Virus record (IMG/VR): IMGVR_UViG_3300030020_000072
Coordinates: 1-30,473 of that record
Length of the DNA: 30,473 bases
Origin: a virus
Reading direction: 5' to 3' (one strand)
The translations under genes were made by a program, and so were the position numbers. Shown here piece after piece: positions 7,431-27,457 of the stretch. The notes under the pieces were generated by a model, which worked only from the letters and a program-made list of their open reading frames with translations, made no database searches and was not told where the DNA came from. Position 1 is the stretch's first letter. Each line of letters opens with the position of its first letter.

Positions 7431-7465
7431 AAAAAGGTAAAAGGTTTAAGGTGGAAGGGTTCAGG
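7431..7465 (-). repeat. Heptad CCTNNNN array at the junction before B
   Basis: Five consecutive heptamers on the minus strand, each starting CCT (for example CCTTCCA and CCTTAAA), begin inside the stop codon region of the small basic gene (TGA at 7463-7461) and lead up to the B start at 7424. Similar arrays occur at 11338-11379, 22250-22277, 26985-27012 and 27430-27457. Confidence 0.65.
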
Positions 7466-7736
7466 CGCAATTCGCGCATTTGCCCATCAGGGTTTCATGG
7501 GCGGCGTGTTCCATGGCTAGCTCTTCGCGCGCACGGCGGAGAGCGCGTTTGAACGAGCGGCGGTCGGATTTCCCCCGGAGAGCCTTCGGGAAATTGCGGC
7601 GGATGGAACCGTCCACCATGCGGTTATACTCGAACCCACTGGCGTCCGTGAACGTATGTTCAACGGTCACCTTGTCTTTGCCGGTGAACCGGCGCAGGGT
7701 TTTACGAGTGTGCGGGGCAATGTTCTTCATGTGCAT
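7461..7736 (-). CDS. Small basic protein between transposase A and ATPase B
   Basis: A 91-aa, Arg/Lys-rich protein: KNIAPHTRKTLRRFTGKDKV at the start, a middle strand region and a basic helix RRSFKRALRRAREEL, ending with a CxxC-like KCANCA. Position between A and B and charge suggest DNA binding in the transpososome, which is inference. Two starts are possible, ATG 7736 and ATG 7730. The A/C leader AACCATCAACCAAAA abuts the first and lies six bases from the second, so 7730 may be the true one. Confidence 0.7.
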   Translation of the reverse strand: MHMKNIAPHTRKTLRRFTGKDKVTVEHTFTDASGFEYNRMVDGSIRRNFPKALRGKSDRRSFKRALRRAREELAMEHAAHETLMGKCANCA

Positions 7737-7757
7737 TTTTGGTTGATGGTTGATTTA
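7737..7757 (-). promoter_or_regulatory. A/C-rich leader between A and the small basic gene
   Basis: From the stop of A (TAA 7757-7755) to the next start the minus strand contains a duplicated heptamer, ATCAACC twice, followed by AAAA. It shares AACCATCAACCAAAA with the gam leader (3363-3391). No Shine-Dalgarno sequence is present. Confidence 0.5.
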
Positions 7758-10058
7758 TTGGAACAAATGGGCGGTTTGCGCTTCCAGCGCGGCCAGTTCG
7801 GCGGCGCGTTCGGCGCGGGAAAGGGGGGCGGTCTGTGGTGATTCCGGCCGGACCGCACGGTCGTTTAACTCAGCGGGGGCGGGAATCGAACGTCCCTTGG
7901 TGGGCCGCCCCAGCTCACGATCACCACTGCGTGTATGAATTTCCCCACCAAGTGTCTGCGGCCCGGCCGCCTGGGGCAGCCGGTTCGCGCGGTCCGGCGT
8001 GGCAGCGGGAGCGGTGGACCGTTCCACCATCGTCACCTTGCTGATGCCGTCGCGCGTTTCCGTCCTCGCATATTCCATGCGGCCGCTGGCCCCGATGCCG
8101 CGCGTCTCGCGGTGCATCGCCTGGCCAAATTTCTGCCGGGCCAGATACCCGGCCCGCTGATCGTCCGTGCCAAATTCCGTGATGAACCGGATGTGGCCCG
8201 CCGTCTCGCCGATGAGCTGGGCATCGCCCAGGATGTCGCCGGCCTGCCGGTTGTTCGCGTTCTCCATCAGGATCACCTTGGCCCGGCACTTCGGTTCGCG
8301 GGGATTGAAATGCAGCCGGACCTTTTTTCCGTGGTACAACGGCAGGTAATCCGCGCCGAACTCAAACGGCACACTGAAATTCTCAAACATCGGCACCCGG
8401 GTGGCCACAATCATTCCTTTGACCGTGCGCTCCACCGAGTAGGGCGAGAATATCCATTGCATCTCGTCGCTGAACTGGCGCAGCGGCCGGGCGGCGACGG
8501 CATCGGCAAACAGATCATCGGGCACCCAGCGACCGTATTGGGCGCTGTTGATGTGGCGGAGATTGTGCGTACGGACTTCCTCTTCGAAAACCGTCACCAC
8601 ATCGGCCAACGTGGGGAAATAGTGGCGTGGGTCTTTGTGACCGGCCTTGCACGCTTCGTAGGTGGCACAGTTGGCTTCGTTTTCGTTCTGGTAGCGGCCC
8701 ATGTCCGCGTGCGGAAACTGCACCGCCAGGCGCGTCCAGACGCGATTGAAGACGCTCTCAATGGGCTTCGCGTGCGGGCTGTGGGTCCGCCAGTGCTGGC
8801 AGCCCAGCAATTCAATCGCCTGTCGGACCAGCTTGGCATTGAACGTGCCGCCTTCGAATTGAAACCCTTGGTTCGGAATCCCGTGGGTGCGCACGACCGC
8901 GCCCATGCCGTTCAGGATGTCTTCGGCGCGATAACTGCCGCGGGGACGGATGACGTAATCCCAGGCGAGAATCTTGTCGGTCCGGCAATCGTTGTACACC
9001 AGCCATTGGAACCGGCCCAGCAACACGCCAAACTTCTGGCTGCACGGCGTGATGGCTTCGGCGGTCGGCACACAGACGGCGATTCCCGGCGTGGCGTCAT
9101 CGCCGCCGAACCAGTCGCCCGGCTGCATGATCTGGCGTTCGCCCAGCCCGTTGGTGAACCGGCGCTGGCTGCCGGGAGCGTTCAGATTGTCCAGGTTCCA
9201 GTTATGCGGCGAGCGGTGCAGGCGCACCAGCGAGGCATTCACGATGATCTGCCGGGCGATGCTCGGGGGCACCAGCGGCTTGCCGGCGCGTTCGCGGGCG
9301 AGGATTTGTTCCCGGAGCTCTTCCGGGCAGGTCGGCAATTCGCCCAGTCCCAGCGCCACGATCAGGCGACCGCGCATCTGTTCGGTCCAGCCAAAGGGCG
9401 TGGCCGGGAGGCTGATGGTCCGGCGCACGGCTTCGGGCACGGAACCGGTTTCCAGCGTGCGATTCGTGAGCAGGTAAAAGAACCGGGCGGCGGGAACGAA
9501 CCACGGCGGCACCGTCATGCTGCTGGGGGCCACGCGCTGGGCCGGCAAGAGCCCCGCGAGCCCGTGGCGCTTGAACCGCGCAAAGGGCGCGGACTCGCCG
9601 CTGAAGAAACTGGCCGGCTTGCCCAGGGCCGCGGCCGCGGTGCGCAGCGAATGCGCTCCGCCCGCGAGCAACCGTTCAAACTCCCGGCAAACCCCCGCCA
9701 ATGCCTCGGCCTCCAAATAGGCTTCGGCGGTCTCGCGGCGGCTGCCGGTGACCGGGGCCAGATAGGGCTGGGGCGGAATGGAAGTGTGGGCACTACTGGA
9801 ACGGCCACGGCCCCGGGAAGTTACCGTTTCGCTAGCTGCCCCGGAAGGCGCGGTAGGTACTGGGGAAAACCCGGCAGGTTGGTCCATGGTCTTAGCGTCG
9901 GTCATGCCCGAAAAGGCGTCGCCCGCTTCGGGCGTTTCGTCCAAGTCGAAATAGGCGGAAGCTGCCGCCGATGCAGCTTCCGGCAGTTGAGAAGCCACCG
10001 TCACGGGTTGGACTTCGGCGTCCGCTTCGGCAGTGGTGAACGGGGAGGTAAGATTCAT
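7755..10058 (-). CDS. A: MuA-like DDE transposase
   Basis: A 767-aa transposase of the phage Mu A type, longer than the 663 residues of MuA. Residues 1-100 are low-complexity Ala/Pro/Ser-rich, followed by helical DNA-binding domains (about 105-300). The RNase H-like core has a first acid at D320/D321 (WFGGDDATPG), a second position in FEGGTFNAKL where MuA has Asp but this protein has E402, and the third acid E434 in AKPIESVFNRV. A Mu C-like beta-barrel and a basic tail follow (about 540-767), the tail being where MuA contacts MuB. It should cut phage ends and join them to target DNA. The D-E-E triad is unusual. Spacing to the upstream gene is 24 bases. Confidence 0.9.
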   Translation of the reverse strand: MNLTSPFTTAEADAEVQPVTVASQLPEAASAAASAYFDLDETPEAGDAFSGMTDAKTMDQPAGFSPVPTAPSGAASETVTSRGRGRSSSAHTSIPPQPYLAPVTGSRRETAEAYLEAEALAGVCREFERLLAGGAHSLRTAAAALGKPASFFSGESAPFARFKRHGLAGLLPAQRVAPSSMTVPPWFVPAARFFYLLTNRTLETGSVPEAVRRTISLPATPFGWTEQMRGRLIVALGLGELPTCPEELREQILARERAGKPLVPPSIARQIIVNASLVRLHRSPHNWNLDNLNAPGSQRRFTNGLGERQIMQPGDWFGGDDATPGIAVCVPTAEAITPCSQKFGVLLGRFQWLVYNDCRTDKILAWDYVIRPRGSYRAEDILNGMGAVVRTHGIPNQGFQFEGGTFNAKLVRQAIELLGCQHWRTHSPHAKPIESVFNRVWTRLAVQFPHADMGRYQNENEANCATYEACKAGHKDPRHYFPTLADVVTVFEEEVRTHNLRHINSAQYGRWVPDDLFADAVAARPLRQFSDEMQWIFSPYSVERTVKGMIVATRVPMFENFSVPFEFGADYLPLYHGKKVRLHFNPREPKCRAKVILMENANNRQAGDILGDAQLIGETAGHIRFITEFGTDDQRAGYLARQKFGQAMHRETRGIGASGRMEYARTETRDGISKVTMVERSTAPAATPDRANRLPQAAGPQTLGGEIHTRSGDRELGRPTKGRSIPAPAELNDRAVRPESPQTAPLSRAERAAELAALEAQTAHLFQ

Positions 10059-10082
10059 GGTGGCTTCTGGTTTAAATCGGAA

Positions 10083-10862
10083 TCAGGCTTGCAGCAGCAG
10101 GCGTTCGGCGTGGCTGAGGCGTTTCTGGGCGTGGATCTGGTCGGCCATGTTTTCCAGCAGCCAATCCGGGGCCGTGCGCAGGAACTCATTGAAGGCCGTG
10201 CAGATGGAGGTTTGCTGCACCGGGGACAGCTTGCGCCAGCCGGTGATCTGTTTGCGGCCGGTGCCATCGGATTTGGTCTGGACCGTCAGGAACGTGGTGA
10301 TGTGCTTCAGCTTCGTGGCGGTGAACTTCTCAAACGCCTTGCGGTCGGGTTGCTTGCCCACGCCGCCCTTGGCCTGCCCCATGCCGGCCCGCACGATCCG
10401 GCTGGCATCATCGCCCCCGGCAAACACGCCTTCCACGGCATCCTTCATGGTGGTGTTCGCCGACAGGTCGAAAAACATCTGCTTGTACTTGAGCTGTTCC
10501 GGCGTGAGTTCGGCGTCCGGGATGTCAATGATCAGGCCCCCGTCATCCGGCAGATTGGCGACGTCCATCCGGGCGCAAATGACCTTGTGAACATTCTCCC
10601 AACCCCGCATCCAGCGCCGGGCCGTTTCGTAATGGATTTCCGGGATGGCGTCTTGGATGTAAGCCTGAAAATCGCCGTGCGGCATTTCCGCTTTCTTCTG
10701 AAGCAACATCCGGCCGGCGAGCAAACATTTTTGCGAGGCGTGTTCCAGTGCGGTGAGGGCTTCTAAAACGGATGCCCGTAAAGGACTTCCGGCCGTGATG
10801 ATGGTCACTTCCTGAGCCGGGCGCAGGACCACAGTGTTTGATTTGGGAGTTACATTTTTCAT
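10083..10862 (-). CDS. DUF3102-like early protein
   Basis: A 259-aa protein. Residues 28-95 (LEHASQKCLLAGRMLLQKKA, then MPHGDFQAYI and ETARRWMRGWENV) match the pattern of DUF3102-like phage and plasmid proteins: a helix with K, a HG.F/W element and a T/SxxTA.RWM-like helix. The remainder includes a basic KAFEKFTATKLKH stretch and a helical C-terminus (ENMADQIHAQKRLSHAERLL). The ATG at 10862 follows the upstream stop by four bases; the longer frame is rejected because it runs into that gene. It lies just before the transposase and may help replication or regulation, unproven. Confidence 0.7.
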   Translation of the reverse strand: MKNVTPKSNTVVLRPAQEVTIITAGSPLRASVLEALTALEHASQKCLLAGRMLLQKKAEMPHGDFQAYIQDAIPEIHYETARRWMRGWENVHKVICARMDVANLPDDGGLIIDIPDAELTPEQLKYKQMFFDLSANTTMKDAVEGVFAGGDDASRIVRAGMGQAKGGVGKQPDRKAFEKFTATKLKHITTFLTVQTKSDGTGRKQITGWRKLSPVQQTSICTAFNEFLRTAPDWLLENMADQIHAQKRLSHAERLLLQA

Positions 10863-10866
10863 AAAA

Positions 10867-11340
10867 TTATCGGGTGCCCATGGGCAGAGAGATTTGTTTG
10901 GGGACGCTGGCGAACACCCAGCGGCGGCGGAAAAAATCTTCCAGCGCCTGGCGGGGCACATAGATGCCGCCATTGTGCGGCACCGCCTTCAACTCCTCGC
11001 GGAGTTCAATCAACGTGCGGCGGCTCACCCGGAGCAGCTCGCGGACCTCCCAGTTGCACAGCCCCACAAACTGCCCGGGAACCGCTTCCCGGCGGGGGAT
11101 GATGGCTTTCAAAACCGCTTCCAGGCTGAGGCCCGAAGCCTGGGCGGGGTTGATGACTTCCTTGGCCCAGAACCGCAGCTCGCGCTTGATGTTCATGGCC
11201 GGGGCGATGTTAAACACCCAGGTGAAACTCTCGGCATTGTCGCCCAGACCATCCACCATCTCATGGACCGCTTCCACGCTGATGCCTCGCTCAGTGGCGA
11301 TGTAATCGGCGGTGACCAACGTGATGCGGGGATGGATCAT
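10867..11340 (-). CDS. DNA-binding protein with C-terminal helix-turn-helix
   Basis: A 157-aa protein. The C-terminal part (VGLCNWEVRELLRVSRRTLI, then VPHNGGIYVPRQALEDFFRR, about 91-140) looks like a MerR/excisionase-type winged helix-turn-helix. The N-terminus (ITLVTADYIATERGISVEAV) has a second HTH-like element. Its place between the lytic switch and the transposase fits an early regulator or a transposition cofactor. It could be an analogue of a late activator such as Mor or C, but no similarity to those can be claimed. The start codon ATG (11340) is the end of a heptad array. Confidence 0.7.
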   Translation of the reverse strand: MIHPRITLVTADYIATERGISVEAVHEMVDGLGDNAESFTWVFNIAPAMNIKRELRFWAKEVINPAQASGLSLEAVLKAIIPRREAVPGQFVGLCNWEVRELLRVSRRTLIELREELKAVPHNGGIYVPRQALEDFFRRRWVFASVPKQISLPMGTR

Positions 11341-11379
11341 TAGGATGGTGGCGCAGGGCGCTCGGGTTTAGGCGTTAGG
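11338..11379 (-). repeat. Six-unit heptad array spanning a gene junction
   Basis: On the minus strand six 7-base units, nearly all starting CCT or CC, run without a gap from the stop codon of the 11375-11617 gene (inside the unit CCTAACG) to the start codon at 11340 (inside the unit CCTAATG). The array therefore supplies both the stop and the start codon. Confidence 0.7.
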
Positions 11380-11617
11380 TTTGCGGACGGACATTCACTT
11401 GGGCGATGGCTTTGAAGACCTCGCTCCGTTGCAGGGTCAATTCGCTGATCTGGCGGGCCAAGGCCGCGTGCTGGTCGGTCAGCTCGGCAATCATCTGCGT
11501 GAGCTGGGTTTCCTGAAACCGCAGGTCGGCCAGTTCCATCGTGCCCCGGTGGGAACGCTGGACAAACACCTTGCGGGATCTGCCGGCGACAGTCGGACCA
11601 ATTAATTTTGCATTCAT
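11375..11617 (-). CDS. Small coiled-coil early protein
   Basis: An 80-aa protein with a basic N-terminus (NAKLIGPTVAGRSRKVFVQR) and a long coiled-coil-like helix from about residue 28 (ADLRFQETQLTQMIAELTDQ, then LARQISELTLQRSEVF). The ATG at 11617 follows the upstream TAA by one base; the longer frame is within the previous gene. Function unknown. Confidence 0.7.
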   Translation of the reverse strand: MNAKLIGPTVAGRSRKVFVQRSHRGTMELADLRFQETQLTQMIAELTDQHAALARQISELTLQRSEVFKAIAQVNVRPQT

Positions 11618-11618
11618 A

Positions 11619-11834
11619 TTACTTGGGGAACAAAACGGACCGGCCATTTCCCAACTGAATCAAAATGCCATCGTGAAATAGGTTCACTGCTTCGGCATAA
11701 ACCCACAGGTCGGACCGGGTTCCCTTACGTCGCTGGATGCGGCGAAAGTTCAAATTGAGAAACCCGGGTTTTAAGGAGCTACCGAAAGCACCCAGCATCT
11801 GCCAACGTCCTTTCGCCCTTGTTGGAAGTTTCAC
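11619..11834 (-). CDS. Hypothetical early protein (71 aa)
   Basis: A 71-aa basic protein (KLPTRAKGRWQMLGAFGSSL start; LQ/LG-rich end ILIQLGNGRSVLFPK). It starts at GTG 11834, overlapping the stop of the upstream membrane protein gene as GTGA, and ends just before the next ATG. No family recognised. The exact fit between neighbours is the main evidence. Confidence 0.6.
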   Translation of the reverse strand: MKLPTRAKGRWQMLGAFGSSLKPGFLNLNFRRIQRRKGTRSDLWVYAEAVNLFHDGILIQLGNGRSVLFPK

Positions 11835-11989
11835 GAGTTCCCTCCGCTGAGAACAACCGCGACGATGATGGCCACGATGACCAGCGCGACGAAACAGCAG
11901 GCCGCGATGATGACCATATCCCGGCGCAACTCCTGCTGGGCCTTGATGTGTTCGAGACGGATCAGATTGTCGATGCGGTTGATGTTCAT
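11831..11989 (-). CDS. Tiny single-pass membrane protein (52 aa)
   Basis: A 52-aa protein with a charged N-terminal helix (NRIDNLIRLEHIKAQQELRR, residues 4-23) and one strongly hydrophobic transmembrane segment (about 25-47, MVIIAACCFVALVIVAIIVA). It ends SGGNS. The Arg-rich flank predicts the N-terminus in the cytoplasm. Such proteins early in a lytic operon can alter host envelope function or exclude other phages; no direct evidence here. Its stop overlaps the GTG of the next gene. Confidence 0.65.
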   Translation of the reverse strand: MNINRIDNLIRLEHIKAQQELRRDMVIIAACCFVALVIVAIIVAVVLSGGNS

Positions 11990-11992
11990 AGG

Positions 11993-12169
11993 TCAGTCGA
12001 TTTGAGTGTCACGATTGCCGAAGATGAGCACGTCCACCGTGAAGGCGAACAGGATGACGGTGAAGAGGGCGGCGGTGCCCAGCCAATACCCGGCCGTTTT
12101 CAGCAACGGCCAGAACCGGTATGCGGATAATCCCGCGCCGCCAGAGGCAATCAGCAGATGTGCATTCAT
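11993..12169 (-). CDS. Tiny membrane protein (58 aa)
   Basis: A 58-aa protein with a weakly hydrophobic N-terminus (HLLIASGGAGL) and a clear transmembrane segment (about 28-51, GYWLGTAALFTVILFAFTVD), ending in NRDTQID. The ATG at 12169 overlaps the upstream stop (ATGA). It is one of a pair with the next gene (11831-11989). Holin-like or exclusion functions are possible but untested. Confidence 0.65.
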   Translation of the reverse strand: MNAHLLIASGGAGLSAYRFWPLLKTAGYWLGTAALFTVILFAFTVDVLIFGNRDTQID

Positions 12170-12369
12170 TGTGTGTCCTTTTGGTTGATGGTGAAAATAA
12201 ACTCGGCTTGGGCCCGTTCGCCTTCGTCCATGTGGCGCAGCATCAGTGCCGCGGTCTGGCGAACACCTGTTCCCGCCTTGGTGAAGCGGATAATTTCATT
12301 GAGCAACGCGCGGCGTTCGGCCAGCGAATCAGGCAGAGTCTTCAGCGTATGGATGGCGAGCAGGTTCAT
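12166..12369 (-). CDS. Small hypothetical early protein (67 aa)
   Basis: A 67-aa helical protein (NLLAIHTLKTLPDSLAERRA, then LNEIIRFTKAGTGVRQTAAL). The ATG at 12369 overlaps the HTH gene stop as ATGA. Its last codons contain ACCATCAACCAAAAGGACAC, a copy of the A/C leader motif, placed nine bases before the start of the next gene at 12169. No function known. Confidence 0.65.
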   Translation of the reverse strand: MNLLAIHTLKTLPDSLAERRALLNEIIRFTKAGTGVRQTAALMLRHMDEGERAQAEFIFTINQKDTQ

Positions 12370-12554
12370 TTCGAGAGTTCCAATTCCTTGAATAGTTTGG
12401 GAGCGGCAACCGGGAACGGGGTCGGATTGTTCCAAGCGCAATAGGCAGTCTGGCGGGAGATACCCAACCGCCGACAGAGTTCGCTCACGGTCATCTGCCT
12501 TTCCCAGCAGGCGTTACGCAAACTCTTCTTATTGACTTTTTTCAAATCCGACAT
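12366..12554 (-). CDS. Cro/Ner-like helix-turn-helix regulator
   Basis: A 62-aa protein made mostly of a helix-turn-helix: RNACWERQMTVSELCRRLGI followed by SRQTAYCAWNN (about residues 10-41). It is the first gene of the leftward lytic operon and diverges from the repressor gene, the usual place for Cro or Ner, which shut down repressor and early transcription. The ATG at 12554 is preferred; an upstream ATG in frame would place coding sequence across the operator and promoter. Only a weak purine stretch precedes it. Confidence 0.8.
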   Translation of the reverse strand: MSDLKKVNKKSLRNACWERQMTVSELCRRLGISRQTAYCAWNNPTPFPVAAPKLFKELELSK

Positions 12555-12566
12555 ATTGTTTCTTTG

Positions 12567-12628
12567 TGTAACGTGACAATACGTCATGTTACAGTACATC
12601 GTCAAGCGAAAAAGTAACGTGGCATTAC
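12567..12628. promoter_or_regulatory. Operator region of the lysis/lysogeny switch
   Basis: An inverted repeat TGTAACGTGAC / GTCATGTTACA (12567-12577 and 12583-12593; one mismatch, 5-base spacer) overlaps the leftward -10. A third half-site GTAACGTGGC lies at 12614-12623, inside an imperfect palindrome with GTAA/TTAC ends (12614-12628), close to the repressor start. The arrangement suggests a cooperative or autoregulatory operator; no clear rightward promoter for the repressor was found. Confidence 0.65.
12576..12605 (-). promoter_or_regulatory. Leftward lytic promoter
   Basis: On the minus strand a -35 TTGACG (12605-12600) is separated by 18 bases from a -10 TATTGT (12581-12576). It is followed 21 bases later by the ATG of the Cro-like gene. 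The -10 and part of the spacer are covered by the inverted repeat 12567-12593, so repressor binding would block RNA polymerase. Confidence 0.65.
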
Positions 12629-12638
12629 ATTTATTTTT

Positions 12639-13184
12639 GTGAATCCGCAAAAGGCTGAATTTATTGAACTTGCAAGACGTTCTGGCTGGTCACAGGCAGA
12701 GATTGCGAGAAAATTAGAGATGACGCGGGGCGGGGTGAATGGAATCATCACCGGCCCCACCATCCCCAGTCTGGTGGCTTTGAAGCTGTTCCGAATGACG
12801 TTGGCTCAGGAAAAGCCCGAAGCCTTGGTTGGCACCGGGCCCCCTGATCTCACACTGGAACCATGGGAAAAGAAGTTGGTCAGCGGCTTGCGGCAATTAT
12901 CGGACACCTCCCGGCGTCATGCCATGGAGGTGATTAATGCGGTGATGACTACCTACCCCGGTTCACCTGACCCCGTTGCCATTTTGAGCGACAAGGAGCA
13001 GTCGGAAGTGGACGTTGCAGCTTCCAATCTGGCACAGAAGGCGGTGGAACAAATCCGGGGGACTGATAAATATCCCCGGTCACGTAAAGCTGTTTCGCCC
13101 ACCGGTAAAGCTTCCGGGCCAAGGCCAGCCTCTGCGCTCCATTCAATTTCCCCGCAAACGCCTCCAACTCCGGTTCCAAAATAA
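12639..13184 (+). CDS. Lysogeny repressor, XRE-type helix-turn-helix
   Basis: A 181-aa protein with an N-terminal HTH (RSGWSQAEIARKLEMTRGGV, about 14-33) and a middle helical region (LEPWEKKLVSGLRQLSDTSR). The start is GTG 12639: the frame is closed by TAA at 12615, and the next ATG would remove the HTH. No Shine-Dalgarno site precedes it and the leader is very short. It diverges from the Cro-like gene across the operators, typical of a cI/c-type repressor. The last 40 residues are Pro/Ser/Lys-rich, with codon third positions less GC-rich than the body, and lie opposite the minus-strand ORF 12949-13191. Confidence 0.8.
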   Translation: MNPQKAEFIELARRSGWSQAEIARKLEMTRGGVNGIITGPTIPSLVALKLFRMTLAQEKPEALVGTGPPDLTLEPWEKKLVSGLRQLSDTSRRHAMEVINAVMTTYPGSPDPVAILSDKEQSEVDVAASNLAQKAVEQIRGTDKYPRSRKAVSPTGKASGPRPASALHSISPQTPPTPVPK

Positions 13185-13191
13185 TCGTCAT
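12949..13191 (-). CDS. Antisense small protein overlapping the repressor 3' end
   Basis: An 80-aa reading frame with a protein-like N-terminal half (LEPELEAFAGKLNGAQRLAL, then ARKLYRWAKQLYVTG) and high GC at codon third positions down to about 13060. After that, composition degrades towards a Pro/Ser-rich tail. It resembles small phage proteins with an RWAxQL helix. It has GGAAG nine bases before ATG 13191. The frame is convergent with the repressor and overlaps its last 236 bases, so one or both C-termini may be read-through tails. It may be a separate minus-strand gene or a decayed one. Confidence 0.5.
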   Translation of the reverse strand: MTIILEPELEAFAGKLNGAQRLALARKLYRWAKQLYVTGDIYQSPGFVPPPSVPDWKLQRPLPTAPCRSKWQRGQVNRGR

Positions 13192-13305
13192 ATTTTTTCT
13201 TCCACGATGAGAATTTAGGTGAGACATTGGCGGTCATAGCGAATAAGTACCCGGCAATTTAATAACAGGATAATCTACGGAATCTCTTGCATATCTGGAC
13301 CAACC

Positions 13306-13920: not shown

Positions 13921-13924
13921 AATT

Positions 13925-18963: not shown

Positions 18964-19136
18964 CCGTTCACCCCCCTTTTTGGATGCCCCGCCCGGCTTC
19001 CGTAAATGCCCCAGGACGATTTGGGGGGTGTGAAGACACGTTCCCGGCACCGTGGCCACCTTCGCGGGGCTTCGCGGGGGCATAAAACGCGGTTTTAACG
19101 ACCCACCAAACCCAACATTTGACCCCCAAACCACCT
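18964..19136 (+). other. Intergenic spacer between terminase and portal
   Basis: About 170 bases with no gene. Noted are an inverted repeat CACCCCCC (18969-18976) / GGGGGGTG (19023-19030), a duplicated TTCGCGGGG near 19070-19080, and an A/C-rich stretch (19108-19136) just before the portal start. A promoter, attenuator or processing hairpin is possible; none is clear. Confidence 0.4.
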
Positions 19137-21002
19137 ATGGCAATCAAAGAACTCAAAATCCTCGGCAAGACGGTCCTCAGTTTCGGCTCCCTGACCGATG
19201 ATTCCCCGGGCGGCATCCCCGGCAAACCGACCAAATTTCTCTCGCCCCGGTACGAGCCCACCAACATCACCCAGAACGCCGATGTCCTCCGGGTGCAATC
19301 CGCCATCCGCCTGGCGGAAGTGGGCGACACGCAAGAGCTGTTCCGGTTCTACCGGGACGTCCTGCTCAGCGATGATCATGTCCAAGCCTGTTTGGAAACC
19401 CGCAAGCTGGCCACGCTCAGCAATACCATGTGCGTGCTGCCCTTCGAAAAGAAGAATCCCGATGATCTGTTGCTCGCCGCCGCCTTCAATCAAGCGGTGG
19501 ACGATTGCGAAAATTGGGACATGGGCATGATTGCCCTGATGGACAGTGTATTCTGGCCGAACTCCATTGTGGAACGGTTGTTCAAACCCGCCACCCCCGG
19601 CCGTCCGGGTACGCCCAAGCTTCAATATACCCTGCGCAAATTCGTTCCGGTCAATCCTCAGCTCCACTGTTATCAATGGGCCTACATGACCGGGGGCGTG
19701 GGCTTGGGCACCGCCAGCGCGGTCCAGCTCGGCAACCTCGCCGCCGAATTGAACCGGGGCGATAACGTGGATGCCACGATTTCGCCGTACACCATCGACT
19801 TGGAACGGTGGGAACCGTATCTGAAACTCTGGCCCATCGACCAGGGCGGGCGCATCATCTATGACGTCACGAATGCCTGCTATCTGGACCCCGTCCGGCA
19901 TGTGGTGCATCGCGGTCATCTCATGCAGACGTTCCGGGACAACTGGGGTGGTCCGGGTCGGTCCATCCTGATGTGGTGGCTCCTGCGGGGGCTGGGCCGG
20001 ATGTGGTTCGGGGAAGGCATGGAACGGTATGGCAAGCCATTCATGGTCGGTTTTACCGATGCCACAGACCCGGATGCCGTGGGGTTGCTCCGCGATGCCA
20101 TGGATCTGGCCAAGACCATCAATGGCGTGGTTCTGGACGAATCCAGCCGGATGGAACTGAAAGAAGCCATGGTCGCCGGGATGGCCCAGGGCTATCAGGC
20201 GTTCCATGCCATGTGTAACGAAGCGATTTCATTTCGCATCACCGGCCTCCGGGAATCCCAGAAGCCGGCGGGCCTAAATGCCGGGGCGGCTGATTTCAGC
20301 GCGAATGTCCGGGACGACGTCCGCCAACTGGACGGAAAACTGCTCGCTTCCACGGTCATCCGTCAGATCGTGAATCCTTTTGCCCAGATCAACGGGCTGA
20401 AGGGCCGCGTGAAAATCGTTTGGGGCGGTCTTTCCGATGCCGATGCCGCATCGTTTGCGGATCTCCTGGTCAAAATGAAAACTGCCGGGTTCACCATCAC
20501 CGATGATGCCATCGACACCGCCAATGAACGGACCGGCCTAACCTGGCAACGCGTCCAGACCGCCCCCCTCATGCCGGGGGGGCAACTTGGGGCACCGGGT
20601 GCGCCGGGTCAAACGGACTCTGATGACGATGACGATGGTGACGATGGTGACGCTGATCCGGAGGATGGCGATGATGACATCACGGATGATGATGTCACAC
20701 CGCTTTCCTCGCGCCTCGCGCCCCGTGCCTCGCGCCTCGCCTGGCTTTCGGCTACCCGTGCGCCGGCCAAATCGCCCGTGGATGATGTCGCCAGCGCCCA
20801 CAGCGCGGCGCTCGCGCAAGCCTTTCGCGGAGCCCTCGCGCCGGTCCGGCTAATCCTGCTGTCCAGTACCAGCCGCGCCGATGCTGAAAAGAAATTGGCC
20901 CAGCATTTCGCCGATTGGCCCGCCGCCCGGATTGCGGGCATCGTGGAAGAGGCATTGCAGGTTTGCGCCGCCAAGGGCGCGGCGGAAGGCACCCCGAAAT
21001 AA
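19137..21002 (+). CDS. Mu gp29-like portal protein (DUF935 type)
   Basis: A 621-aa portal protein. The conserved core runs from about residue 30 (YEPTNITQNADVLRVQSAIR) through FYRDVLLSDDHVQACLETRK and PYLKLWPIDQGGR to FGEGMERYGKPFMVGF. The family normally runs about 500 residues. Near 490-521 lies an Asp-rich stretch, then a heptad repeat (20707-20741) encoding Ser/Arg/Leu/Ala, then a helical end. Portals form the dodecameric ring for DNA entry. ATG 19137 is preferred over the in-frame TTG 19119, because MAIKELKILGK begins with a more usual codon and the A/C leader directly precedes it. Confidence 0.88.
   Translation: MAIKELKILGKTVLSFGSLTDDSPGGIPGKPTKFLSPRYEPTNITQNADVLRVQSAIRLAEVGDTQELFRFYRDVLLSDDHVQACLETRKLATLSNTMCVLPFEKKNPDDLLLAAAFNQAVDDCENWDMGMIALMDSVFWPNSIVERLFKPATPGRPGTPKLQYTLRKFVPVNPQLHCYQWAYMTGGVGLGTASAVQLGNLAAELNRGDNVDATISPYTIDLERWEPYLKLWPIDQGGRIIYDVTNACYLDPVRHVVHRGHLMQTFRDNWGGPGRSILMWWLLRGLGRMWFGEGMERYGKPFMVGFTDATDPDAVGLLRDAMDLAKTINGVVLDESSRMELKEAMVAGMAQGYQAFHAMCNEAISFRITGLRESQKPAGLNAGAADFSANVRDDVRQLDGKLLASTVIRQIVNPFAQINGLKGRVKIVWGGLSDADAASFADLLVKMKTAGFTITDDAIDTANERTGLTWQRVQTAPLMPGGQLGAPGAPGQTDSDDDDDGDDGDADPEDGDDDITDDDVTPLSSRLAPRASRLAWLSATRAPAKSPVDDVASAHSAALAQAFRGALAPVRLILLSSTSRADAEKKLAQHFADWPAARIAGIVEEALQVCAAKGAAEGTPK
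20707..20741 (+). repeat. Heptad CCTCGCG repeat inside the portal gene
   Basis: Five back-to-back 7-base units, mostly CCTCGCG, one CCCCGTG and one CCTCGCC, in frame near the portal C-terminus. The unit type matches the junction arrays elsewhere, so a junction repeat may have become coding sequence or been inserted into it. Confidence 0.65.
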
Positions 21003-21824: not shown

Positions 21825-21825
21825 T

Positions 21826-22260
21826 ATGGCCAACGTCTCTTTCAAAGTTCAGCGCGACGACATCAGCCCGCATCTGGCGAAGTTGGCGGCGACGGCGCGG
21901 CGTCCGGAAAAGGTGTTTCGCGCGATGGGCACCACGTTCCTATCGCTGACGATGGGGACGTTCAATGATGTGGGGGCGGAATATCGGCCGGTGGCCTGGG
22001 CGAAGAAAAAGGATGGCACCCCCAGCAAGCTTCAGAAGTCTGGCACGCTCTCCCGGAGCTTTCACCTGGACGTCACGTCATCCTCGGCCACGGTCGGTTC
22101 ACCGGTCATCTATGCCGCCACGCACCAGTTCGGGCGCGGCCCCATCCCGGCCCGGCCGTTCTTTCCCGTGGTGGACGGCAAGTTGACCCCGAAAGCCGAA
22201 GAGAAGATCCGGCGGGCCGGCGAACGGGCGCTGGAACGGCAAATCGGTTCTGAAGGTTAA
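21826..22260 (+). CDS. Mu gpG-like virion morphogenesis protein
   Basis: A 144-aa protein of the Mu G/gp31 virion morphogenesis family. Typical parts are an N-terminal strand and helix region, LTMGTFNDVGAEYRPVAWAK, TLSRSFHLDVTSSSATVGSP, and the signature GRGPIPARPFFPVVDGKLTP. It starts one base after the gp30-like stop. In other phages the family helps tail attachment or completion. The end lies in a heptad-like array (22250-22277). Confidence 0.8.
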   Translation: MANVSFKVQRDDISPHLAKLAATARRPEKVFRAMGTTFLSLTMGTFNDVGAEYRPVAWAKKKDGTPSKLQKSGTLSRSFHLDVTSSSATVGSPVIYAATHQFGRGPIPARPFFPVVDGKLTPKAEEKIRRAGERALERQIGSEG

Positions 22261-22277
22261 AAGTTCAAGGTGGAAGG
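22250..22277 (-). repeat. Heptad repeats at the gpG-like gene end
   Basis: Four 7-base units, of which three end in AAGG (for example TTCAAGG and TGGAAGG) and one reads TTAAAAG. They span the TAA stop (22258-22260). On the minus strand they read CCTTNNN. The orientation is opposite to that of the other arrays relative to transcription. A 15-base palindrome GCGTGGTCACCACGC follows at 22338-22352. Confidence 0.5.
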
Positions 22278-22389
22278 CGGAAAAACACCCCGCCAACCCA
22301 TCGCCCAAGGTGGCCGTGAAGCAGTCACACCCATTTGGCGTGGTCACCACGCTGACCCCTGAGCATGGTTGCTTTAGGGTGGCAACGTG

Positions 22390-23424
22390 ATGGTTGACGA
22401 ACTCATTCCGTTGAAAGTTTCCAATGGTGCCCTGAAGGGCCCCACGCTCCCCGTTCGGCTGAAGGTGTTAAGCTGGGGCGCGAACGATTCGACCGTGGGC
22501 CCGAAAACCGTTGGTCCCAAGACCGTGGCCGCGCTGGCCGGCAATCAGCGCACGTTAGGCTATGAGCGCGTGGCGATTGATTTCGACCATTGCAGCCTCA
22601 GTACCAACTCCACCTACAAGGAACTGCTCAAAAACGGCCAGCCCCCGCTGATCTTCGGCTACGGCAAGCCGGTCGTGGTGGAAAACGAAGGCACCTTCCT
22701 GGAAGACATCACCTGGACCCCGTTGGGCGAGCAGCACGCCCGCAACTTCGAAGACCTGTCTCCCACCGTCCGCGAACGCGATGGCGAAGTGGATTTCATT
22801 CATTCCGTGGCCCTCACGCCCAATGGTTGCGTGCATGGGCTGCAATTTTTTTCCGTCAACCACAACCAAAATACACCAACTATGCTCACCAAAGCAGTCT
22901 TGGCCGACCTCCTCGGCCTGAGCGCGAATGCGGAAGATTCCGTTATTCTCGCTGAGTTAAAAAAACGCCTGACGCAGCCCGCCGTGGATCTCACGCCGCT
23001 GTCGTCCCGCATCGCCAGCTTGGAAACCAAGCCCGCCCCGGCCGCCGCCGGCACCGATCTGACGCCGCTTGCCACGCGGATTGAAAAGCTCGAAACCGAG
23101 TTGACCGCCCTGCGCACCACGGATGTGAATCTGAAGCGCGAAGAGTTGGTCGCCCTGTTCGCCCGCGAAGGCAAGGCTCCCAAGAAAAACGCGACCACCG
23201 CGTACACGACCGAAGAGCTGAAGGGATTGGACTTGTCCACGCTCCAATTGCTGCACGCCAATACGCCCGTGACCGTCGCGCTGAGCGCCCGGACCGGTGG
23301 CCACCAGACGGAAAGCAAGAAATCGTTCAAGGACGCCAATGGCAAGGTGGATCTCGCGGCCGCATTGGATGCGGAAAACGCCGCGGCCGGCCTGAGCCTT
23401 GACCCGCCGTCGAATATCGCCTGA
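22390..23424 (+). CDS. I: Mu gpI-like prohead protease, fused to scaffold
   Basis: A 344-aa protein. The N-terminal half (about 1-160) resembles the Mu I protease: VAIDFDHCSL near residues 58-68, LIFGYGKPVVV, and FIHSVALTPNGCVHGL (about 136-151) where a catalytic His-Ser region is expected. The C-terminal half is scaffold-like: MLTKAVLADLLGLSANAEDS, a coiled coil TPLATRIEKLETELTALRTT and LDLSTLQLLHANTPV. Protease and scaffold act in procapsid maturation. ATG 22390 is preferred over the preceding in-frame GTG. Confidence 0.82.
   Translation: MVDELIPLKVSNGALKGPTLPVRLKVLSWGANDSTVGPKTVGPKTVAALAGNQRTLGYERVAIDFDHCSLSTNSTYKELLKNGQPPLIFGYGKPVVVENEGTFLEDITWTPLGEQHARNFEDLSPTVRERDGEVDFIHSVALTPNGCVHGLQFFSVNHNQNTPTMLTKAVLADLLGLSANAEDSVILAELKKRLTQPAVDLTPLSSRIASLETKPAPAAAGTDLTPLATRIEKLETELTALRTTDVNLKREELVALFAREGKAPKKNATTAYTTEELKGLDLSTLQLLHANTPVTVALSARTGGHQTESKKSFKDANGKVDLAAALDAENAAAGLSLDPPSNIA
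22855..22881 (+). promoter_or_regulatory. A/C-rich leader before the internal scaffold start
   Basis: Within gene I, AACCACAACCAAAA is followed ten bases later by the ATG at 22882. It nearly equals AACCATCAACCAAAA before gam (3363-3391), before 7736 and before 12169. Because the stretch also has to code for protein, its match to non-coding leaders is informative. Confidence 0.5.
22882..23424 (+). CDS. Z: Nested scaffold protein (Mu gpZ-like)
   Basis: A probable internal start within gene I gives a 180-aa product with the coiled-coil scaffold half. In Mu, the scaffold Z is made from an internal start in the protease gene, so this follows the family rule. The ATG sits at the domain border and behind an A/C leader. 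The separate product is inferred; no experiment can be seen in the sequence. Confidence 0.6.
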   Translation: MLTKAVLADLLGLSANAEDSVILAELKKRLTQPAVDLTPLSSRIASLETKPAPAAAGTDLTPLATRIEKLETELTALRTTDVNLKREELVALFAREGKAPKKNATTAYTTEELKGLDLSTLQLLHANTPVTVALSARTGGHQTESKKSFKDANGKVDLAAALDAENAAAGLSLDPPSNIA

Positions 23425-23472
23425 ACCGGCATCGTTCCCACCTCCCCAATCATAACCAATCATTAAAAAAAT

Positions 23473-24474
23473 ATGTCTCGCCAATATCTCACAGCGATAG
23501 ATCTTGCTGCCCGCCGTGGCACCGATAAAGAAATCGGCATGGTCCAGCAGATCATCAATTACGCGCCGGAAGTCCAGTTGATCCCCGGCCGGGTCATCGA
23601 AGGCACGTTCACCGAAGCCAAAGTTCAGGTCGGCATCACCCAGGGCGGTGCCTTCCGGGCTTACAATTCCGGGGTGATTCCCGGGGCCGGTGAATACGAA
23701 ATGCGCCGGTTCGACGCCTTCTATTTCGACAGCGAACTCGAAATCGATGAAGCCATCGCCAAGAAAGCCAGCCAGTATGGCGACAGTCTGGGCGACTTGC
23801 AGGCGGATGAAATCGCCGGGGCTTTGCAGGCCAAGGCCATTCAGTTCAGCCAGCAGTTCTACGGGGGACTGGCCATCAACCAGAACGGTTTCCCGGGTCT
23901 CATGGATCTTCTGAAGATTTACCAGAAGGTCACCGATTCCCGCACCGGCAAGCCCATCGTCAATTATGTGGACGCCAATCCGGGCAGTACCAATCCGGCC
24001 ACGGAATGCGTCTGGTACGTCTGGGTTCATCCTCAGGCCGTCAGCTTCATCTACGGTGGTGGAAGTGTCATCGAAACCAATCCGTGGGTGTGGCAGTATG
24101 TCAACATCCCCGGGGTTAAAGGTAGTCCGAGCTTGCGCCGCCGCGCGTTGCTCTCGAACATCTCCGGGTTCGTCGGCCTGAGCTGCGCCCATCCGTGGGG
24201 CGTGGTCTGCATCAAGAATATTGATGCGACCCATCCCTGGACGGATGCCCTGTCCGCCCAACTGGATGCGCTGTTGCCCGCCGGCATCACTCCCACGCAT
24301 TGCTTCGCCACCAAACGCGCCCGGGCGCTCCTACAACAGCAACGCACTGTGGTGTTGTACGGGTCCGGGGCCACGCGCCCGAACCAGGCGACCATCGCGC
24401 CCATCCCCACGAATGATGTGAACGGTGTTCCCATCTACGTGACGGACGGCATCCAACTGAACGCCGCCTTCTGA
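23473..24474 (+). CDS. T: Major capsid protein (Mu T-like position, HK97 fold likely)
   Basis: A 333-aa protein in the major head slot right after protease/scaffold. The N-terminus (SRQYLTAIDLAARRGTDKEI) and the middle (DEIAGALQAKAIQFSQQFYG, DEAIAKKASQYGDSL) fit HK97-fold capsid proteins. Its C-terminus has GVPIYVTDGIQLNAAF. The length suits a capsid protein. Whether it is closer to Mu T or to the Bordetella phage Bbp17 type cannot be settled; the cement-like gene downstream favours the latter. The A-rich leader before the ATG lacks a purine-rich site, and a strong hairpin follows (24482-24507). Confidence 0.8.
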   Translation: MSRQYLTAIDLAARRGTDKEIGMVQQIINYAPEVQLIPGRVIEGTFTEAKVQVGITQGGAFRAYNSGVIPGAGEYEMRRFDAFYFDSELEIDEAIAKKASQYGDSLGDLQADEIAGALQAKAIQFSQQFYGGLAINQNGFPGLMDLLKIYQKVTDSRTGKPIVNYVDANPGSTNPATECVWYVWVHPQAVSFIYGGGSVIETNPWVWQYVNIPGVKGSPSLRRRALLSNISGFVGLSCAHPWGVVCIKNIDATHPWTDALSAQLDALLPAGITPTHCFATKRARALLQQQRTVVLYGSGATRPNQATIAPIPTNDVNGVPIYVTDGIQLNAAF

Positions 24475-24481
24475 TTCCGAA

Positions 24482-24507
24482 GCGGGGGGAGGAAATCCTC
24501 CCCCCGC
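24482..24507 (+). terminator. GC-rich hairpin after the capsid gene
   Basis: GCGGGGGGAGGA and TCCTCCCCCCGC (24482-24493 and 24496-24507) form a perfect 12-bp stem with a minimal loop, seven bases after the capsid stop. A short TTT follows within four bases. It probably ends or stabilises part of the capsid transcript. Confidence 0.7.
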
Positions 24508-24544
24508 CCTTTAAATCCCCGTTTTAATCCAATCAAAAAATCGC

Positions 24545-24982
24545 ATGAAAAACCAAAAAAATTCGCTGGTCTCCTCTCTGATCCTGGTCGCTTTCGTCCT
24601 GGTCGCCTCGCTGGTCACCCTTCAGGCCCAGCAGTACTACACCAACTCCACCCCCCCGAACGGCTATCCGCAAGGCTATTCCGCCGGGTATTCCCAACCG
24701 CTGGCCCCGAGCCAGACGCTGGGCAACCAGGTGGCGGATGGCATCTTTTCCGGCCAGTTTAACACGGGCACCAATGCCGCGGTGACGAACCTGTTCTCGG
24801 CCCTGTTTCCGGCCACCACGAACCTGTACGCCGCCCCCGCGGTGTATGTGCAGCAAATCAATCCGACCATCGGCGGGTTGGTCGGCACCAATCAGGTGTT
24901 GTTCGTCACGACCACCAATTGTGCCGTTTACTTCGGCGGCGCCACCAACGTCAATTATTCGCTGACCGTCATCGGTCACTGA
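24545..24982 (+). CDS. Secreted Asn/Thr-rich small protein
   Basis: A 145-aa protein with a Sec signal peptide (SSLILVAFVLVASLVTLQA, about 10-28, cleaved before QQ) and a mature part rich in Gln, Tyr, Asn, Thr and Gly, ending GATNVNYSLTVIGH. No enzyme motif or domain is recognised. It lies between capsid and cement-like genes, where an exported product is unexpected. It may be a surface or adhesion protein made late. Without a Shine-Dalgarno site, the ATG is preceded by CCAATCAAAAAATCGC. Confidence 0.65.
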   Translation: MKNQKNSLVSSLILVAFVLVASLVTLQAQQYYTNSTPPNGYPQGYSAGYSQPLAPSQTLGNQVADGIFSGQFNTGTNAAVTNLFSALFPATTNLYAAPAVYVQQINPTIGGLVGTNQVLFVTTTNCAVYFGGATNVNYSLTVIGH

Positions 24983-25044
24983 AGCCAGGCGTCATCGTCG
25001 CCGGGAAAACTCTGTTACCAATCGCAACTTAAATTCTAAAAATC

Positions 25045-25503
25045 ATGAAAGACTCGCAGCTCCATCTGGAACAATATCTGCCCGCCGCGGGCGCGGCCGT
25101 GGCCACCGGTTACTTGGATCTTGGCATTGACAATCCGGGCACTTCGCTGTCCGGCATTGGCAACACCAGTTTCAGCAACAACTGGCGGCTGGGTTTCATC
25201 CGGGTTTCCGTCCCGGCGTTGCCCAACAACACCAACAATGCGAACGCCATCACGCTGACCTTCCAGGACAGCGCGGACGGGGCGCAAACCTTCCAGCAAG
25301 GTGGCACCGGCACCGCCGCGGGTCTCCCGCTGGTCCAGGTGCAAGTGTACGGGGTGGCCAATACCGGCTCGCCGGCCACTGTGGTGGCGGTCCCCGTGCC
25401 CCCGGGCACGCGCGGTCCCATCAACTTCAACCTGTCCGTCCCCGCCGGCAGCGGGAACAACACGGCCGGTCTGGTCAGCTTTGACTGGGTGGACGACGTC
25501 TGA
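25045..25503 (+). CDS. Capsid cement/decoration-like protein (Bbp16 type possible)
   Basis: A 152-aa beta-rich protein: AVATGYLDLGIDNPGT near residues 19-34, then NWRLGFIRVSVPALPNN and ITLTFQDSADGAQTF, and a C-terminal VPPGTRGPINFNLSVPAGSG. The plan (an initial D-L-G element, strands with V/L and Gly-Asn loops) resembles Bbp16-type capsid cement proteins adjacent to their capsid genes. The match is by pattern and position only. Two hairpins follow it (25511-25535 and 25545-25584). Confidence 0.55.
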   Translation: MKDSQLHLEQYLPAAGAAVATGYLDLGIDNPGTSLSGIGNTSFSNNWRLGFIRVSVPALPNNTNNANAITLTFQDSADGAQTFQQGGTGTAAGLPLVQVQVYGVANTGSPATVVAVPVPPGTRGPINFNLSVPAGSGNNTAGLVSFDWVDDV

Positions 25504-25510
25504 TGATGTT

Positions 25511-25535
25511 CCCAGGCGTCTGAACAGCGCCTGGG
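25511..25535 (+). other. Hairpin after the cement-like gene
   Basis: CCCAGGCG (25511-25518) pairs with CGCCTGGG (25528-25535) around a nine-base loop, eight bases after the stop. Without a T tract it is likely a processing or stability hairpin next to the stronger one downstream. Confidence 0.5.
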
Positions 25536-25544
25536 TTGGTCGCT

Positions 25545-25584
25545 GGCGGGTGGTCGTTAGTGCATTTTCGACCACCCGCCTTTT
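25545..25584 (+). terminator. Strong terminator before the methyltransferase-glycosyltransferase gene
   Basis: GGCGGGTGGTCG (25545-25556) and CGACCACCCGCC (25569-25580) form a perfect 12-bp stem with a 12-base loop, followed immediately by TTTT (25581-25584). It separates the capsid unit from the downstream gene, so that gene needs read-through or its own promoter. Confidence 0.75.
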
Positions 25585-25623
25585 CCTGAAACTCAATGCA
25601 CACGACCAAAATCCTTCCTCAAA

Positions 25624-27003
25624 ATGCACAACTCCAAAAAGCCCAAAATCCCCGCGTGGATGGCCCTCGAGGTCCTCGAATATGATCTGGACCTGAATCC
25701 CGCTCCGGAAACCATCCTGGACATCGGCGCCAACATCGGCGCATTTTCCCTGCACTATTCCCAGAAGTGGCCGAATGCTCACATTTTTGCTTACGAGCCG
25801 GTCAAAGCCAATTTTGAAGAATTGGCATTCTTGGAAAGCGAACGCATTCACCCGATCTGCTGTGCCATTCGTGGCGAAAATGCGGACGGGTATGACAACA
25901 TCTTCATCGGTGACCATGGGGTCACTTGCAGTTTCCACCAGCGCGGCCGGCAAACCACTGCCAAAGAAAAGGTCATTTGCATGTCCGCGAATAACTGCCC
26001 GGATGCTGATCTGATCAAGATTGATACGGAAGGCTGTGAGCTGGAAATCATTTTTGCGTTGCCACTGGATAAAACCCGCGCCCTGGTGGTTGAATATCAC
26101 GCCGCGGCGGATGTCGATAAAATCGACGTCTATCTCACTGCTAAAGGTTTTTCCCAGTTGGAACACATCCCGCATTATCCGGGGTTTGGCGTTTTGAAGT
26201 ATGGCCGCATCAATGCCGGTGTTTCTCTTCCCAAGCCGCCGCCCGCTCCCGCGGCAACCAGTGTTCCGGCTCCCGCCGCGAACGGCCCGGCCCGCAAGGT
26301 GTACATCGCCGTCGCCGCCCATTTTGCCAGCAACGATTTGATGTTCGTCCAATCGCTGCTCGCGCTGGTGGCCCGTCCGCCGTTGCCGTTGGCGTTTGGG
26401 TTCTCCGCAGATCCCAGTGTGGAACGTGCCCGGAATATTCTGACCGCCAATTTTCTGGCGACGGATTGCACGCACATCCTGTTCATTGATTCGGACATTG
26501 GCTTCAGCCCGGCCGATGTCGCCCAAATTTCCCGGCACGATGAGCTGGTGGTCGGCGGGATGTATCCCTTGAAAAGCATGACGCCGGATGTCACCTGGTG
26601 TGGCAACGCGCTGGACGCTGGCCAGCAGCCCGGCGCAGCGGAGCGCCCGGACAGTCTCACGCCGGTCAAATACATCGGCACGGGCTTCCTGTGTATCGCG
26701 CGGCAGGTTTTTGAGCATATCGTCGCCGTGGATGGCCCGGCGATTGAATACAAACAGGATTTTCCGCCGCATCGCCGCGAGTTCGCCTTCTGGCGGCAAG
26801 GGGTGGCCGCGGGCCGGTTCCTCACGGAAGACTGGCTTTTCTGCCAGCGTTGGCTGGAACTGGGCGGCAAGATTTTCGCCGACCGCGCCGTCGTTCTGAA
26901 ACACGCCGGCCGGGCCGAATGGCCCTTGCCCTTCCAAGCCGGCAATCCGTTTGTTAAACCGGAAAGGGTCCCCGCCAATCCCAGCCCCGCGCCTCGCGCC
27001 TAA
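25624..27003 (+). CDS. FkbM-type methyltransferase fused to GT-A glycosyltransferase
   Basis: A 459-aa fusion. Domain 1 (about 10-200) is an FkbM methyltransferase: LDIGANIGAFSLHYS (32-46) binds S-adenosylmethionine, AYEPV follows (57-61), and LIKIDTEGCE (130-139) carries the family's D-T-E-G motif. A Pro/Ala linker (about 205-225) joins domain 2, a GT-A glycosyltransferase with ILFIDSDIGFSP and the metal-binding D289-x-D291, plus TEDWLFCQRW (401-410) where the catalytic base is expected. Substrates are unknown; sugar O-methylation with transfer onto a virion protein or host glycan is inferred. The 3' end is a heptad array that includes the stop. Confidence 0.82.
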   Translation: MHNSKKPKIPAWMALEVLEYDLDLNPAPETILDIGANIGAFSLHYSQKWPNAHIFAYEPVKANFEELAFLESERIHPICCAIRGENADGYDNIFIGDHGVTCSFHQRGRQTTAKEKVICMSANNCPDADLIKIDTEGCELEIIFALPLDKTRALVVEYHAAADVDKIDVYLTAKGFSQLEHIPHYPGFGVLKYGRINAGVSLPKPPPAPAATSVPAPAANGPARKVYIAVAAHFASNDLMFVQSLLALVARPPLPLAFGFSADPSVERARNILTANFLATDCTHILFIDSDIGFSPADVAQISRHDELVVGGMYPLKSMTPDVTWCGNALDAGQQPGAAERPDSLTPVKYIGTGFLCIARQVFEHIVAVDGPAIEYKQDFPPHRREFAFWRQGVAAGRFLTEDWLFCQRWLELGGKIFADRAVVLKHAGRAEWPLPFQAGNPFVKPERVPANPSPAPRA

Positions 27004-27012
27004 CGCCTATTC
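26985..27012 (+). repeat. Heptad array from the fusion-gene stop to the gp36-like start
   Basis: Four 7-base units, including CCTCGCG and CCTAACG, run into the ATG at 27014. The unit CCTAACG contains the stop codon TAA (27001-27003). The identical unit CCTAACG plays the same part at 11373-11379. Confidence 0.65.
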
Positions 27013-27013
27013 T

Positions 27014-27436
27014 ATGCCCTACTGCACCCAACAAGAAGTTCAAGAGGAAATCGGCGGCTGGAACCGGGTGCAAGAGGCATTGGACGACTCGGGCACTGGG
27101 AACCAGGTGGAGCTGACCGCCCGCCTGGGTAATCTCATGGCGCGGGCCAGCGCGGCCGTGGATGCCTTCCTGCAAGGCCGCTACATCACGCCGCTCTCGC
27201 CGGTTCCGGCGATTGCGGTGGAAGCGTCCATCATTTTCACGGCGGAGATCCTGTATGGACGTCGCCGGCAGAGTACGGACGAAAAGAACCCGTACACGGC
27301 CCGGGCGAACGATCTCCGCGACCGGCTCAAACGCATCGCCGACCGAAAAGAGAGCTTGGATGCCTTGGAACGCCCCGCCTTCACGCCGGGCGCGGTCCTG
27401 AGCAAACCCAGTTCGCTGAACGGTTCCTCCCTGTAA
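27014..27436 (+). CDS. Mu gp36-like head-tail joining protein (DUF1320)
   Basis: A 140-aa protein of the Mu gp36 (DUF1320) family. Pattern: PYCTQQEVQEEIGG at the start, LMARASAAVDAFLQGRYITP (about 42-61), EASIIFTAEILYGRRRQ (70-86) and a charged tail. It probably belongs to the head-tail connector. ATG 27014 is right after the heptad array. Confidence 0.8.
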   Translation: MPYCTQQEVQEEIGGWNRVQEALDDSGTGNQVELTARLGNLMARASAAVDAFLQGRYITPLSPVPAIAVEASIIFTAEILYGRRRQSTDEKNPYTARANDLRDRLKRIADRKESLDALERPAFTPGAVLSKPSSLNGSSL

Positions 27437-27457
27437 CCTCCAACCCTGAACCTTTCC
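27430..27457 (+). repeat. Heptad array between gp36-like and gp37-like genes
   Basis: Four 7-base units (for example CCTGTAA and CCTCCAA) lead from the gp36-like stop (TAA 27434-27436, within the first unit) to the GTG at 27459. The pattern equals the arrays at 7431-7465 and 11338-11379. Confidence 0.65.

Follow-up and report, generated by a model that had tools for sequence, protein, structure and literature searches.

The virus record IMGVR_UViG_3300030020_000072, which is covered in full by the window analysed here (30,473 bases), carries arrays of seven-base units, mostly beginning with CCT, at several of its gene junctions. This raises the question as to whether the arrays are an element specific to this lineage, mobile or generated by slippage, and whether they affect translational coupling, as the initial annotation proposed. 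Genes were called with a small gene finder based on a codon model, trained on the homology-supported genes of the window, and include those for a MuA-like transposase, a MuB-like ATPase, a Mu-type portal, a MuF-like protein, a head protease, the capsid and connector proteins. By its MuA-like transposase, MuB-like ATPase, Mu-type portal and MuF, the carrier is a Mu-like transposable phage, with the genes of the left half on the minus strand and those of the right half on the plus strand. The left end of the phage also holds a cytosine-5 DNA methyltransferase gene (867-2213, minus strand; PF00145), and a protein with an FkbM methyltransferase domain is encoded amid the structural genes (25624-27003, plus strand), in the same place as in the related phages G216, G210 and G212.

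Table 1 Heptad arrays of the window and the genes next to or around them.
Feature	Position	Strand	Units or annotation	CCT letters matched
Heptad array	7431-7465	-	CCTGAAC CCTTCCA CCTTAAA CCTTTTA CCTTTTT	15/15
Heptad array, six units	11338-11379	-	CCTAACG CCTAAAC CCGAGCG CCCTGCG CCACCAT CCTAATG	15/18
Heptad array	22250-22277	-	CCTTCCA CCTTGAA CTTTTAA CCTTCAG	11/12
Heptad array	26985-27012	+	CCCCGCG CCTCGCG CCTAACG CCTATTC	11/12
Heptad array	27430-27457	+	CCTGTAA CCTCCAA CCCTGAA CCTTTCC	11/12
Sixth heptad array, within portal CDS	20707-20741	+	CCTCGCG x3, CCCCGTG, CCTCGCC	
MuB-like AAA ATPase	6384..7424	-	phrog_296 DNA transposition protein, PF13401	
MuA-like transposase	7755..10058	-	phrog_310	
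HTH gene	10867-11340	-		
Mu-type portal protein	19119..21002	+	PF06074	
Neck gene	21826-22260		TAA stop under array 22250-22277	
Head-tail adaptor gene	ATG at 27014	+	3' neighbour of FkbM-domain gene	
Gene starting GTG	27459-27956		next after adaptor gene	

All five junctions singled out in the initial annotation carry period-7 CCT arrays whose units can be read directly (Table 1), and each array contains the stop codon of the upstream gene. The first lies between the gene at 7461-7736, whose TGA it contains, and the MuB-like gene, whose ATG is 6 nt away; the second extends from the TAA of the gene at 11375-11647 up to the ATG that opens the HTH gene. On the right, the array at 26985-27012 encodes the final residues of the FkbM-domain gene and its TAA and adjoins the ATG of the head-tail adaptor gene, and that at 27430-27457 reaches from the adaptor gene's TAA to the GTG start of the next gene. 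The proposal that the arrays run into the following start stands for these four, which end no more than 7 nt from a start or include the start codon, but not for the array over the neck gene stop, from which the next start is ~110 nt off; this array runs against the direction of transcription, and the other four are oppositely oriented. The unit CCTAACG does carry a stop twice, as had been noticed (11375-11377, minus strand, and 27001-27003, plus strand). The window units share the CCT core, the other four bases being variable. No inverted pairs were seen among the arrays of the window; three of four neighbouring pairs in clade phages and 9 of 30 in the cellular genome G190 are inverted. The sixth array sits in a variable C-terminal stretch of the portal gene, and G216 (locus L131) has CCTGAAA units in the matching part of its own portal gene.

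An exact phase-7 CCT run of at least four units occurs only once in the window, at 7465, and the remaining arrays have broken anchors, so that the case for arrays depends on degenerate matching. Allowing four units with at least 11 of 12 CCT letters, the whole window contains five sites at period 7, compared with none or one at each of the other periods from 4 to 14, and dinucleotide-shuffled versions of it yield 0.05 period-7 sites. The initial annotation named as decisive whether shuffled junctions of the same composition contain such runs as frequently. They do not: 0.02 arrays were obtained against four observed at 11 or more of 12 letters (maximum one in 200 shuffles), and 0.33 against five at 10 or more of 12 (maximum two). 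Even the weakest of the five, at 11338-11379, has an expectation of 0.017 per window for six units at 15 of 18 letters. Chance or base composition, which could appeal to the single strict run and to the visibility of the other arrays by degenerate matching only, is hardly credible against shuffled values of 0.02-0.05 for four to five observed arrays and the recurrence of the period-7 junction pattern in relatives, and we rejected it on the window and junction shuffles. The reversed CCT pattern was dropped as an independent control, because units such as CCTTCCA hold TCC at period 7.

Relatives of the phage were found with a terminase query, eleven at first and more later, to give a final set of 20 clade records; a MuA query against viral contigs returned no relatives. 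The 20 records contain 67 arrays at lag 7, compared with 4, 5, 21, 4, 11 and 5 at lags 4, 5, 8, 10, 11 and 13, respectively. Lags divisible by three are raised too, which is what coding sequence would produce. Array presence varies among clade phages, several having none or one, and most of the lag-7 arrays (54 of 67) fall within the 22% of clade sequence around junctions, with 12 arrays being intragenic. Among the junction arrays, 30 of 55 include the stop of the gene upstream and 31 of 55 lie no more than 12 nt from a start. An anchor-free scan of fragments of G190 and G161 (genomes from the phylum of G001, a phylum inferred via locus L174, Verrucomicrobiia), of the archaeal genome G005 and of the phage relatives shows period 7 exceeding the other non-codon periods, with different favoured anchors: GAC and AGA in G190, ACC and CCT in G161, and CCT in G005. 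The general signal is period 7, and CCT is only the current vocabulary of the window phage. CCTNNNN as such is not the element, contrary to what had been proposed, as the relatives and genomes from the probable host phylum use many anchors at period 7. Lineage specificity can be kept for the CCT vocabulary, given that junctions of G216, G211 and G212 are without CCT arrays, but not for heptad arrays, since others are present there. The suggested slippage-type repeat of heptads with few sequence constraints fits the non-chance arrays at gene junctions. A universal heptad vocabulary was considered and rejected, with 209 families in 344 further arrays from 240 loci.

Among relatives, the junction position is conserved while the heptad word changes. 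For example, the neck-protease junction has CCTTCCA/CCTTGAA in the window (minus strand), TTTCAGG/TTTCAAG in G216 and TTTCAGG in G211, and in G210 it has GAAACGT, then an inverted partner and then TTCGATG units. At the FkbM-adaptor junction, CCTCGCG/CCTAACG in the window corresponds to AAATCGT/AAATCCG in G216 and CTGATCA/CTGATTA in G212, with a CCCTCTCC...GGAGAGGG palindrome (GAGAGGG type) taking the place of heptads in G210. The MuF-neck junction has heptads in G211 and the palindrome in G216 and G210. Arrays co-occur at homologous junctions in 9 pairs, where a length-weighted permutation gives 2.97 (p 0.013). A chromosomal site with aligned flanks in G190 and G054, which belong to one genus, carries an inverted pair in both genomes, made of GAGACTT/GTCTCA heptads in one and GGGATTC/ATCCCGC in the other. 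Only one strain pair was found (L125/L126), and its members are 100% identical over 17,432 bp. As a separate observation, CCCTCTCC...GGAGAGGGCCGGGGTGAGG palindromes fill gene junctions of G216 and G210 where relatives carry heptads.

The words used at different junctions of one phage are related. The 7-mer overlap among arrays of one phage (0.25-0.57 in seven of nine phages and 0.14 and 0.00 in the other two) is higher than that with number-matched arrays of other phages (0.004-0.18; Wilcoxon p 0.008 for the nine phages). Single families recur at distant junctions, AAATCGT being present four times in G216 and CCTTCAG four times in G210, where it forms a near-identical stretch of about 33 bases. 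G210 and G211 have terminases that are 82% identical, yet share only 0.01-0.03 of their array vocabulary; for G216 and G211 about 40% is common. The heptad vocabulary is therefore common within a phage and does not track phage phylogeny. With regard to the host, a prophage-like contig of G190 (C152) has arrays with 38 of 45 and 29 of 43 7-mers in the arrays of its own bin, versus 1 and 4 in the other genome. The two best arrays of a second prophage-like contig (C189 of G134) have 29 of 38 and 35 of 42 own-bin 7-mers versus 4 and 4, these being 2 of its 11 arrays that match their own bin strongly, while the rest match weakly. A third prophage region (G127) has no arrays. These data suggest that phages carry the heptads of their host, on the strength of two binned contigs for which binning errors or host flanks are possible. 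No sampled genome stands out by vocabulary as host of the window phage; hosts of window-type phages probably belong to the phylum of G001 (Verrucomicrobiota, again by way of L174).

Heptameric repeats have been described in bacterial chromosomes. Heterogeneous heptamer repeats, (GGGANTN)n in Xanthomonas and GGGGA(C/T)T in Nostoc, mostly have about four units in Xanthomonas, where they are dispersed, mostly intergenic near the end of the upstream gene and often in inverted pairs; related species retain them between the same gene pairs although their sequence varies widely, and in Xanthomonas axonopodis they are found on neither of the two plasmids (Rehm et al. 2015, PMC4692102). The phage arrays resemble them in their period of 7, their shared core with variable positions and their mainly intergenic location near the upstream gene end. 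They differ in being phage-borne, in having as the constant part CCT rather than the G-tract of a three-tier quadruplex, and in that the heptads at a given junction are unrelated among phage relatives. The four G-tracts of at least three G that a quadruplex needs were not encountered in the window, where a unit mostly supplies only GG on the AGG strand. In marine Beggiatoaceae, Cyanobacteria and Bacteroidetes, TAACTGA direct repeats comprise two to six units, sometimes variant, of one fixed heptamer in nearly a single orientation; many end just before a start codon and some overlap the end of the upstream gene (MacGregor 2015, PMC4679880). The phage arrays are likewise heptamer direct repeats, often near starts and overlapping upstream gene ends, and G212 has similar units (CTGATCA/CTGATTA), but the phage vocabulary is loose, occurs in both orientations and differs per phage; the unit TAACTGA is absent among the window units listed. 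The survey of Mrazek et al. (2007), to the extent that it is cited in PMC4679880 and PMC4692102, reports an excess of 7-nt units in long simple repeats of prokaryotic genomes; here, the units are degenerate and in a virus. The phage arrays behave like heptamer repeats of this broad kind and are most likely among them, and they represent neither the G-quadruplex subtype nor TAACTGA. Our literature search, of incomplete coverage, found nothing relevant on heptamer repeats in phages. What appears to be new is that a virus clade carries them, that words are replaced while the junctions stay fixed, and that the vocabulary hints at host specificity.

On balance, and with some reserve, we favour the view that the arrays are degenerate heptameric tandem repeats like the heterogeneous heptamers of bacterial chromosomes, residing in a Mu-like phage and spreading in a host-linked manner. 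A replication-associated process in the host, such as 7-nt slippage combined with template switching, would expand, homogenise and spread the arrays, and the phage would thereby acquire the vocabulary of the host in which it replicates. The arrays would persist at junctions, from the stop of one gene to the start of the next, because insertions are tolerated in this expendable stretch, and most of them are probably spacer DNA with no function that depends on sequence. Speaking against this view, adjacent units are scarcely more alike than units two apart, a weak slippage signature that is partly confounded by detection, and slippage from local sequence has to be supplemented by dispersal or biased generation to account for one family at several distant junctions.

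Purely local slippage would be a simpler origin: each array would arise independently from seven local bases when the polymerase slips, preferentially by 7 nt, and would then diverge through point mutation. Among the longer simple repeats of many bacterial genomes, heptamers are the most frequent, and slippage across a polymerase contact of 7 nt has been proposed (Mrazek et al. 2007, again by way of PMC4679880 and PMC4692102); the differing families at homologous junctions fit such an origin. Simple local slippage fails, however, to explain one family at several distant junctions, as for AAATCGT and CCTTCAG, and the excess of own-phage over cross-phage vocabulary overlap also speaks against it. 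We consider this explanation unlikely.

A second alternative is that the arrays are sequence-specific regulatory elements, for instance post-transcriptional leaders or binding sites as proposed for TAACTGA, that replace the ribosome-binding site and couple translation. Shine-Dalgarno-like 4-mers are found upstream of only 4 of 40 window genes, and the closeness to starts of four of five window arrays and of 31 of 55 clade junction arrays is what such elements would show, although any filler falls near a start where gaps are short. On the coding strand, arrays close to starts contain little G (skew -0.34 versus -0.16 in all leaders). The AAATCGT family of G216, G211 and G212 is in the coding orientation in seven of seven cases, no more than 6 nt before a start, and is the only family with a fully consistent orientation; the seven cases are not fully independent, as the three phages are related. 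This consistency is unexpected for neutral spacers and counts against the spacer view. Against a regulatory element are the completely different units at homologous junctions, the 12 arrays inside genes and the orientation of same-family pairs within one phage, which agrees relative to transcription in 32 of 44 pairs and is opposite in 12; where the genes are on opposite strands, it agrees in only 9 of 15. As 7 equals 1 modulo 3, a stop-bearing unit would close all frames, but a three-frame stop signal was rejected, with stop codons equally present on the coding and reverse strands (79 versus 77 frames, 9 versus 13 arrays). The absence of an overall coding-strand bias argues against a general RNA signal. 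The effect on translational coupling contemplated in the initial annotation is thus not supported as a general one, given also both orientations and the intragenic arrays. We regard a regulatory element as quite unlikely overall, and it is possible that some arrays have been locally co-opted as unstructured leaders.

The arrays could also be small mobile repeats that insert at gene ends as a unit, or recombination linkers providing short homology for module exchange between phages and prophages. Fillers look interchangeable, with heptads or a palindrome at the FkbM-adaptor and MuF-neck junctions, and copies of one family are dispersed. Since a fixed length, a fixed end sequence and an associated enzyme were all not seen, and 209 families among the 344 further arrays are unlike a single element, this explanation is very doubtful.

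Returning to host-linked degenerate repeats, bacterial heptamer repeats are widespread, and the colinear, compact phage clade is a natural experiment in which one junction can be followed through several relatives. A fixed position with changing words, which tend to be alike in one phage and in two cases partly match the host bin, makes the question of origin testable, and the heptad vocabulary could provide a sequence-based means of matching phages with their hosts. A bolder version, to which we give little credence, is that a sequence-specific process of the hosts writes lineage-specific heptads at junctions and rewrites those of incoming phages, in which case the vocabulary would record the current host.

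Several further observations concern heptads elsewhere. Contigs C4 and C168 of G190 (L265-L268, L346) have very dense arrays, 42 in 80 kb of C4, with many neighbouring direct or inverted pairs, and are far denser than the other contigs of the bin. The Woesearchaeota archaeon G005 (locus L144; e.g. L305-L324) has CCT heptad runs in which neighbouring units nearly all differ (CCTAATA, CCTACGT, CCTAACG, CCTTCGT, CCTTCCG) and the unit order is similar at separate sites; its five-unit CCT matches number 209+299 versus none for the reversed pattern, a control that is not independent. These runs may be a longer dispersed repeat made of heptads. Finally, three exact copies of [AC]ACCATCAACCAAA are located near gene starts in the left half of the window (3377-3390, 7738-7751 and 12180-12193, minus strand), where 0.63 would be expected with two mismatches allowed. 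One copy also lies directly upstream of the MuB gene of G212, and the motif is possibly an early regulatory or leader motif that is itself partly heptad-like.
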